In this document: positions 11,894 through 38,749 of the stretch, piece by piece | How the letters are laid out: every line of letters begins with the position of its first letter | How positions within the stretch are numbered: the first letter of the stretch is position 1 | Assembly: GCA_027031485.1 (NCBI GenBank) | Contig: JALVQI010000072.1 | Coordinates: 1-41,763 of the forward strand | Direction: 5' to 3' | Origin: Candidatus Aminicenantota bacterium | GTDB lineage: Bacteria > Acidobacteriota > Aminicenantia > JAMOAD01 | DNA: 41,763 nucleotides | Notes under the pieces: model-generated | Told to the model about the DNA's origin: nothing | Seen by the model: only the letters and a program-made list of their open reading frames with translations | Database searches by the model: none | Program-made: the position numbers and the translations under genes

Positions 11894-11935
11894 GTTTCAG
11901 AAAAAATTATTATAAAAGGGTATTTTCTTAAATCT

Positions 11936-12304
11936 CAGTACTGTCCGGGAAATTTCAGGTAGCGAAGAGTTAGTGAGAGCTTTGAGCGTTGAGCATTGAG
12001 CCATGACCTGTTCACTAAGAAAATTGTTAGTTTCTTGTAATTAACAATTTTCTTTATTTAATTTCTTTTAATAAAAGAAATTTACTGATAGCTTAATACA
12101 ATAAACATTCAAAATTGGCTCAACGCTTGATGCTCAATGCTCAAGGCTATTAAGACCTTCAGAATTTAGCTCAGAGCTCAATGCTCATGGCTATCTTGAT
12201 ATCCCATAGGACACCTTCTGTGTTGATTTTTTTGAAAATACTTATATATCATACATCTTCACGCGGAAGTGTCCCAATCCTCTGTTTTTTTCCGGACACT
12301 ACTG
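11936..12304. mobile_element. MITE-like non-coding element, copy 1 (369 bp)
   Basis: Ends are CAGTACTGTCCGG and CCGGACACTACTG, which are inverted repeats of each other with one mismatch. Inside are a period-7 array (11981-12001), a 13-bp perfect hairpin (12017-12029 with 12042-12054), a 10-bp hairpin with a 3-base loop (12060-12069 with 12073-12082), reverse-complement period-7 runs (12117-12151 and about 12169-12195), and a GGACAC...GTGTCC pair (12209-12274). The heptamer CTTAAAT occurs close to both ends but offset by a few bases, so the target duplication is imperfect. No coding capacity. Confidence 0.85.
11981..12001 (+). repeat. Period-7 tandem array in element copy 1
   Basis: Three contiguous heptamers, TTTGAGC, GTTGAGC and ATTGAGC, vary only at the first base. 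They are matched by opposite-strand units at 12117-12151 (GGCTCAA, CGCTTGA, TGCTCAA, TGCTCAA). Confidence 0.85.
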
Positions 12305-12648
12305 ACTTAAATTAATATTTTCTTCGGAAATATTTTTTTTTAAAACTTAAAATCCCCCAGAGATAATTTAAGATCAAAAAGATTTCCTTTGGAACCAATC
12401 CTTATAAGTTTTTTTAAAGGTTTTTTTGATAAAAACAGGATTTGAAAACTTTCTCCTCTGTTATAAACCATAAAAAACCCTTTCCATTGTGCAAAATTCT
12501 GAGATCTCTGCTCATATTATTCTGCTCAGATTATAAAAATAATTACTTTTATCCCGTTAAAGGCAAAGGAGAAGTGGATTGAGGATAGGGGAAATAACGA
12601 AGAAATTAGAAAAAAGGATAGAACAGAAAAGAAAAAGTGATTTAATTT
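12305..12648. other. Gene-free stretch between element copy 1 and the glycosyltransferase
   Basis: Apart from the possible gene remnant at 12340-12516 I see only AT-rich sequence. No promoter or stable terminator was recognised near the 3' end of the glycosyltransferase gene. Confidence 0.5.
12340..12516 (-). pseudogene. Possible remnant of a protein C-terminus or tiny gene
   Basis: On the minus strand a frame stays open for 58 codons and ends in TAA. It reads protein-like: WKGFFMVYNRGESFQ, then LIRIGSKGNLFDLKLSLGDF. An internal ATG at 12471 with GGAAAGGG six bases upstream would give 43 residues. The mixed polar/hydrophobic composition looks like a beta-rich C-terminus cut off by decay upstream, where stops appear. 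It may be what is left of a second gene beside the glycosyltransferase. I recognise no family. Confidence 0.3.
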
Positions 12649-15073: not shown

Positions 15074-15280
15074 CAAATCAAATATATAATGTAAAAGGTA
15101 ATTGTTAGTTGTGAATCAATGATGAACAACAGAAAGTTTCGGAACCAGATAATTTTAAGCTATTTTTATCTGATAGTTTTTCATTATTTCAGAGAAAATC
15201 AGTACTGTCCGGGAAATTTCAGGTAGTGAAGAGTTAATAATATCAAAAGTATTAGGAGAAAAAATCCCGCTCCATGATAG

Positions 15281-15322
15281 CTTTGAGCCTTGAGCCATGA
15301 GCGTTGAGCTTTGAGCATTGAG
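15281..15322 (+). repeat. Six-unit period-7 tandem array (consensus CNWTGAG)
   Basis: Six contiguous heptamers are CTTTGAG, CCTTGAG, CCATGAG, CGTTGAG, CTTTGAG and CATTGAG. Only the second and third bases vary. Opposite-strand units occur at 15433-15453 and 15663-15697. Confidence 0.9.
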
Positions 15323-15510
15323 CAGACTACAAAGGAAAGTTGTTAGTTTCTTGTAATTAACAATTTTCTTTATTTAATTTCTTTTAATAAAAGAAATTTA
15401 CTGATAGCTTAATACAATTAACCTTCAAAATTGGCTCAACGCTTGATGCTCAATGCTATTAAGACCTTCAGAATTTAGCTCAATGCTCATGGCTATCAAG
15501 TGCTTTGAGC

Positions 15511-15545
15511 TCAATCGTGAATGGTGAATCGTAAATCGTTAATCG
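15511..15545 (+). repeat. Second, unrelated period-7 array (consensus TNAATSG)
   Basis: Five contiguous heptamers are TCAATCG, TGAATGG, TGAATCG, TAAATCG and TTAATCG. The second base is the main variable position. A short TTGCTGT-TTGCTGT-TGTTTGT run follows at 15566-15586, again with period 7. Both lie in the segment absent from copy 1. Confidence 0.85.
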
Positions 15546-15824
15546 GAGCGGTCGGTGTTCAGTTTATTGCTGTTTGCTGTTGTTTGTAAATTCTTTTTTT
15601 ATAAAATTTGTTTTAAAAGAAAATAACAGATTACAACTTATCAGAGACTTTCCTTAATGTTTTGCTCAATGCTCAATGCTTGATGCTCATGGCTATCTTG
15701 ATATCCCATGGGACACCTCCTGTGTTGATTTCTTTGAAAATACTTATATATCATACTTCTTCACGCGGAGGTGTCCCAATCCTCTGTTTTTTTTCCGGAC
15801 ACTACTGAGAGAAAATCAAGAATA

Positions 15825-38225: not shown

Positions 38226-38615
38226 CCTATTTTTTTTCAACCCCGGAAGCCGGATGAATAAACTAATAAAGGGAAAATAGATAATTATCTGGAAATCTTT
38301 GCTCGAAAATTTCATTATGAATTGCATAAAAGCGTAAATTTCTCCTTTTCCGTAAATTTTGAGGTCTTTACCCTTTTTTAAAGCAAATTCCCTCCCTTTA
38401 AACCTTTTTCTTTCATCAAACTAACATTCATAAAATATATGCCAATCTATTAATTAACCTTAATAACCTCTTCAATAAACCACAATATCCATACTCCCGA
38501 TTAAATTTTATTAAGAACATCTCTCGTGTTGTGTTACTGTATTTCTACCTTCTCAGCCTTGGGTATCTCAAAACTTCATTTTTCTCCGGACAGTACTGAA
38601 ACAAACTATTTTTTC
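38226..38615. repeat. Gene-free stretch ending in a solitary element end
   Basis: CCGGACAGTACTG at 38586-38598 is a perfect reverse complement of the left terminal repeat of the 11936 and 15200 elements. The sequence before it (CTTCATTTTTCT) resembles the T-rich right end of those copies. No second end and no period-7 array were found. The rest is AT-rich without coding signal. Confidence 0.5.

Positions 38616-38656: not shown

Positions 38657-38749
<93 letters not shown>

Follow-up and report, generated by a model that had tools for sequence, protein, structure and literature searches.

The window analysed here is a stretch of 41,763 nucleotides that makes up contig C72 of an assembled Candidatus Aminicenantota genome (G000; 2.97 Mb in 245 contigs, estimated contamination 5.8%), and its AT content is 66%. 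An element designated W1 lies in this window (Table 1). The initial annotation described positions 15,191 to 15,816 as an element with 13-bp inverted ends and an exact 9-bp target duplication, and this description is confirmed: the left end CAGTACTGTCCGG pairs with the right end CCGGACACTACTG at 12 of 13 positions, with a C/G difference at position 6, and AGAGAAAAT is present on both sides, an exact 9-bp match with a chance probability of about 1e-5 at the local base composition. No ORF of at least 100 aa is found in W1. Folded as DNA, the element gives z = -11.8 against 20 shuffles and its interior is very structured; an Rfam search of the window returned two tRNAs only, with no match inside W1. 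The non-coding and highly structured interior proposed earlier is retained, except that the structure seems to belong to captured host repeat DNA and is not specific for the element.

Table 1. Features of the element W1 and of a second copy in the window (positions refer to the window)
Feature	Positions	Strand	Remarks
MITE copy W1	15200..15807	+	608 bp, transposase-less
Left target-site duplication AGAGAAAAT	15191..15199		one copy in the G002 empty site
Right target-site duplication AGAGAAAAT	15808..15816		exact, 9 bp
Left terminal inverted repeat CAGTACTGTCCGG	15200..15212	+	
Right terminal inverted repeat (minus-strand reading CAGTAGTGTCCGG)	15795..15807	-	
Left end akin to the resident IS left end	15200..15265	+	79% to the C169 type across this stretch
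Putatively captured heptamer-repeat interior	15278..15693		TTGAGCA-type arrays, inverted copies, AT-rich cores; also free-standing elsewhere
Right 114 bp, derived from the IS4-family IS	15694..15807	-	holds the ribosome-binding site of the transposase gene together with its start codon and initial five codons
Predicted hairpin over the vestigial transposase start	15709..15778	-	12-bp perfect arms 15709-15720 and 15767-15778
Second MITE copy W2	11936..12304	+	369 bp with a shorter interior; degenerate duplication, TCTTAAATCT / ACTTAAATTA, in the flanks; absent at the G002 orthologous locus

A DNA search with W1 against its own genome recovered many copies. The end pattern CAGTA(C/G)TGTCCGG (CAGTASTGTCCGG) occurs at 43 exact sites in the 2.97-Mb genome and at none for the reversed control pattern, hence the ends are not due to chance, and the uniqueness that the initial annotation had named as a possible refutation is not found. 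Nine MITE copies are assembled end to end (W1, W2 and those on contigs C2, C7, C142, C153, C172, C82 and C87), most copies being several percent apart in sequence. They range from 332 to 608 bp, compared with a usual MITE size of 50-500 bp (PMC10969869), and W1 lies above that range owing to its captured interior. When left-only and right-only ends are paired by their flanks, and copies cut by contig ends are counted in, the genome holds 17-21 distinct insertions. Exact 9-bp duplications surround seven of them (W1, C142, C153, C172, C82, C87 and the C27/C145 pair), while the duplication is 11 bp at C2, degenerate at W2 and lacking at C7.

Two further occurrences of such ends were noted. A lone CAGTACTGTCCGG end lies on the minus strand of the window at 38586-38598, near a tRNA gene (38657-38746), and the sequence inward of it resembles a decayed IS right end; it is probably a relic of this IS group. 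Moreover, the 8-bp flank GATGCCCC is common to an IS-type left end on contig C131 (L081) and a MITE-type right end on contig C35 (L022), representing either one hybrid element or a chance match.

The joined flanks of W1, together with those of eight further elements bearing such ends, were searched against two congeneric genomes (G001 and G002), and the empty site that the initial annotation had suggested looking for was found in G002. Bases 100 to 335 of the joined W1 flanks align to contig C318 of that genome at 94% identity, unbroken across the junction, and the uninterrupted site holds a single AGAGAAAAT; the site was therefore intact before the insertion, which duplicated nine bases. W1 is accordingly an insertion with a 9-bp duplication, and not all orthologous loci are occupied. 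The high AT content of the window, in which short repeats are common, might suggest that short inverted and direct repeats merely happen to surround ordinary structured intergenic DNA that never moved. This reading is refuted by the clean empty site and is further opposed by the 43 end sequences against none and by the 9-bp duplications at seven separate insertions, and we regard it as vanishingly improbable.

The other loci are less clear-cut. In G001 the DNA upstream of the gene neighbouring W1 differs, so that the orthologous site is not comparable. At the W2 locus (window 11935-12305) G002 provides no clean empty site: the element is absent from contig C350 (L121), where about 70 bp of unrelated sequence stands between two CTTAAAT copies, which may reflect a further insertion or an ancient rearrangement at this site. 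The element is also absent from the congeners at the C142, C87 and C7 sites, where the intergenic DNA is too diverged to place the exact junction. For the C172 site, the G001 ortholog aligns through the junction with gaps and the G002 match spans the duplication and the right side only. Searches of G002 with the element DNA found no full-length copy and those with the transposase gave zero matches, which is consistent with a spread after the species split.

The initial annotation attributed the movement to a DDE-type transposase encoded elsewhere, a claim that is supported by the empty site, by the multicopy family with 9-bp duplications and by a resident IS with the same ends, likewise a suggested target of search. 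This IS, of 1329 bp, is enclosed by MITE-type ends on contig C39 (G000:C39:1184-2512) and encodes a 392-aa transposase, which matches the IS4 family profile NF033592 with 238 bits (cut-off 115; 1.2e-70) and has the domains DDE_Tnp_1 and DUF4372. The Y(2)R(3)E(6)K motif is present (YKKRWDIEKFFKWIK at residue 291), and the acidic residues D124, D192 and E298, assigned by motif and not by structure, fit the spacing D(60-110)D(100-150)E. The ends CAGTACTGT and CAGTAGTGT follow the pattern CA------T, and the 9-bp duplication is inside the 8-10 bp criterion. The IS4Sa subgroup of the IS4 family is characterised by CA ends that carry a T at position 9, a size of 1150-1750 bp, 8-10 bp duplications and the YREK motif (PMC2266710); the partner IS agrees with all of these and fits the subgroup by ends, size, duplication length and motif. 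The MITE itself encodes nothing.

The C39 IS is the sole fully assembled IS copy. Many contigs break off inside further copies, the right ends of which are nearly identical, and we infer the intactness of the active IS from the one copy and these contig ends. Two other IS copies have exact 9-bp duplications, AGTTAATAA and TAAAAACAC, one paired across contigs and the other across a scaffold gap. The C39 copy is without target duplication. A flank, ACCTCGCTGCAT, adjoins the IS left end on C39 (L060) as well as the IS right end on C100 (L050), which points to a misassembly, to strain variation or to IS copies that have recombined, and any of these may be the reason for the missing duplication at C39.

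When genome contigs elsewhere were searched with the transposase, the sole hit was a relative at 35% from a Bacteroidales MAG; solved structures gave zero sequence matches, while transposases on sequenced plasmids reach up to 40% identity. One of the systems compared is ISPosp4, an IS4-family element of Polaromonas sp. JS666 plasmid 2, whose transposase is 39.8% identical to that of the partner IS. The terminal repeat of ISPosp4 starts with CAGTAGTGTCCGG, 13 bases identical to the MITE right end, and its duplication AGATTCGAT is also 9 bp long; it is however an autonomous IS, whereas the MITE lacks a transposase and its interior is foreign. A Magnetococcus relative likewise combines the terminal repeat CACTAGTGTCCGG with a 9-bp duplication. 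The statement that no family was recognisable can hence be revised, since IS4-family elements, ISPosp4 among them, have the same ends. The suggestion of an undescribed MITE family holds in part: a literature search, with ISfinder outside its scope, found no prior description of this MITE, yet its ends belong to the IS4 family.

Both extremities of W1 resemble the resident IS. The right 114 bp share 91% identity with the C39 IS end and 94-95% with the commoner IS type, and the remnant of the transposase in them comprises the first five codons only. On the left, the MITE follows the C39 IS end for about 17 bp and then diverges from it, and its identity to the commoner type is about 79%, several IS variants with differing left ends being present in the genome. 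The 12-bp-arm hairpin buries the ribosome-binding site, the start codon and the first five codons. The transposases of IS10 and IS50 are shielded from read-through transcription by such a hairpin, and the one in the MITE looks like a leftover of an IS protection against read-through translation.

The C39-type IS is the likely donor and mover of the MITE. One could argue instead that the copies were moved by a different transposase with the same end specificity, now lost or unassembled, given that IS variants with other left ends exist and that some insertions may be old, the copies differing by several percent. We find this quite improbable: the right 114 bp match the commonest IS type at 94-95% and C39 at 91%, and a search, which covered relatives of the C39 transposase, revealed no other transposase with these ends.

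The middle of the MITE, about 400 bp, is not derived from the IS and appears to represent captured intergenic heptamer-repeat DNA of the host genus. Its unit is seven bases, ATTGAGC and variants, in arrays with inverted copies and AT-rich cores. The same material is found without IS ends in the own genome (C209, C232, C78 and C138), and nearly all of the 37 matches of W1 to G002 fall in the heptamer interior. A three-unit heptamer pattern yields 60 + 60 hits for G000 and 11 + 24 for G002, the controls giving 0; elsewhere in the phylum its occurrence is only sporadic, there mostly with other spacer bases. One free-standing heptamer array is common to G000 and G002 at the same locus; such arrays therefore predate the MITE insertion at 15200.

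All nine end-to-end copies contain the interior, and its length varies widely. These observations bear on the possibility that the heptamer interior is a functional block under selection, for example a structured RNA, a terminator or a regulatory site, which the IS ends have spread. Its presence in every one of the nine copies, the abundance of the heptamers in both genomes relative to the controls, the locus common to the two species and the folding z-score of -11.8 could all be accommodated by such a function. However, a single founding capture predicts the retention in all copies equally well, the interior differs widely in length among them and Rfam gives no match, and we therefore hold a function of this kind to be unlikely. 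Similarly doubtful, in our opinion, is a scenario in which the MITE with its IS4 ends serves as a vehicle for an already existing, independently dispersed heptamer element; two repeat systems without common origin would then be amplified jointly, with a function residing in the heptamer block.

Some heptamer loci show further features. In G002 a free-standing heptamer element (about 1430-1650 of L090, contig C213) lies between 13-bp direct repeats ATAGATGTCAACC, and heptamer elements might themselves insert; no such flanking direct repeats were seen at the other free-standing copies looked at. A second intergenic palindrome, GTAGGGGCAATTC...GAATTGCCCCTAC, recurs beside or around heptamer arrays in both G002 (L086 and L091) and G000 (L074 and L075). 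An association of heptamer arrays with four-helix-bundle genes, considered from the literature only, received zero support.

Intergenic direct repeats of seven bases have been described before, namely TAACTGA in Beggiatoaceae (PMC4679880) and heptanucleotide elements in Geobacter metallireducens (PMC2700814). These are short intergenic arrays with many occurrences per genome, of the same kind as the MITE interior, which differs from them in its TTGAGCA-type unit, in having inverted arms that surround AT-rich cores, and in being carried between IS ends. The whole element is reminiscent of the BrickBuilt MITE of Porphyromonas gingivalis, which is intergenic and present in about 19 copies, and has IS-like terminal repeats and a strongly folding tandem-repeat interior (PMC4596501). 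BrickBuilt nevertheless has IS5-type ends, 23-nt repeats and irregular 2-5 bp duplications without a transposase remnant (PMC4596501), in contrast to the present MITE, which combines IS4-type ends with 7-nt repeats and 9-bp duplications and in which 114 bp are still recognisable as IS.

Taken together, W1 is very probably a non-autonomous IS4-family transposon (MITE), with two ends of the resident IS, a host heptamer block of about 400 bp in place of the transposase gene, and movement in trans. In the simplest history, a copy of the IS would have been stripped of its transposase gene and have acquired a heptamer-repeat block, and the composite of IS ends and heptamer element would then have multiplied. 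Transposase from intact IS copies would recognise the CAGTASTGTCCGG ends in trans, mobilise the MITE and insert it through a 9-bp staggered cut, while the interior would be passive cargo whose inverted heptamer arms cause the strong folding. The MITE is seemingly unnamed yet ordinary in kind, the captured-repeat interior being its sole unusual feature.

With a partner IS, target duplications and an empty site, this is a well-documented bacterial MITE in a lineage that is represented here by assembled genomes only. It suggests that a MITE can originate by the swap of a transposase gene for unrelated host repeat DNA, as opposed to a simple internal deletion, and it advises caution, in that the structured interior of such elements need not be the transposon's own.
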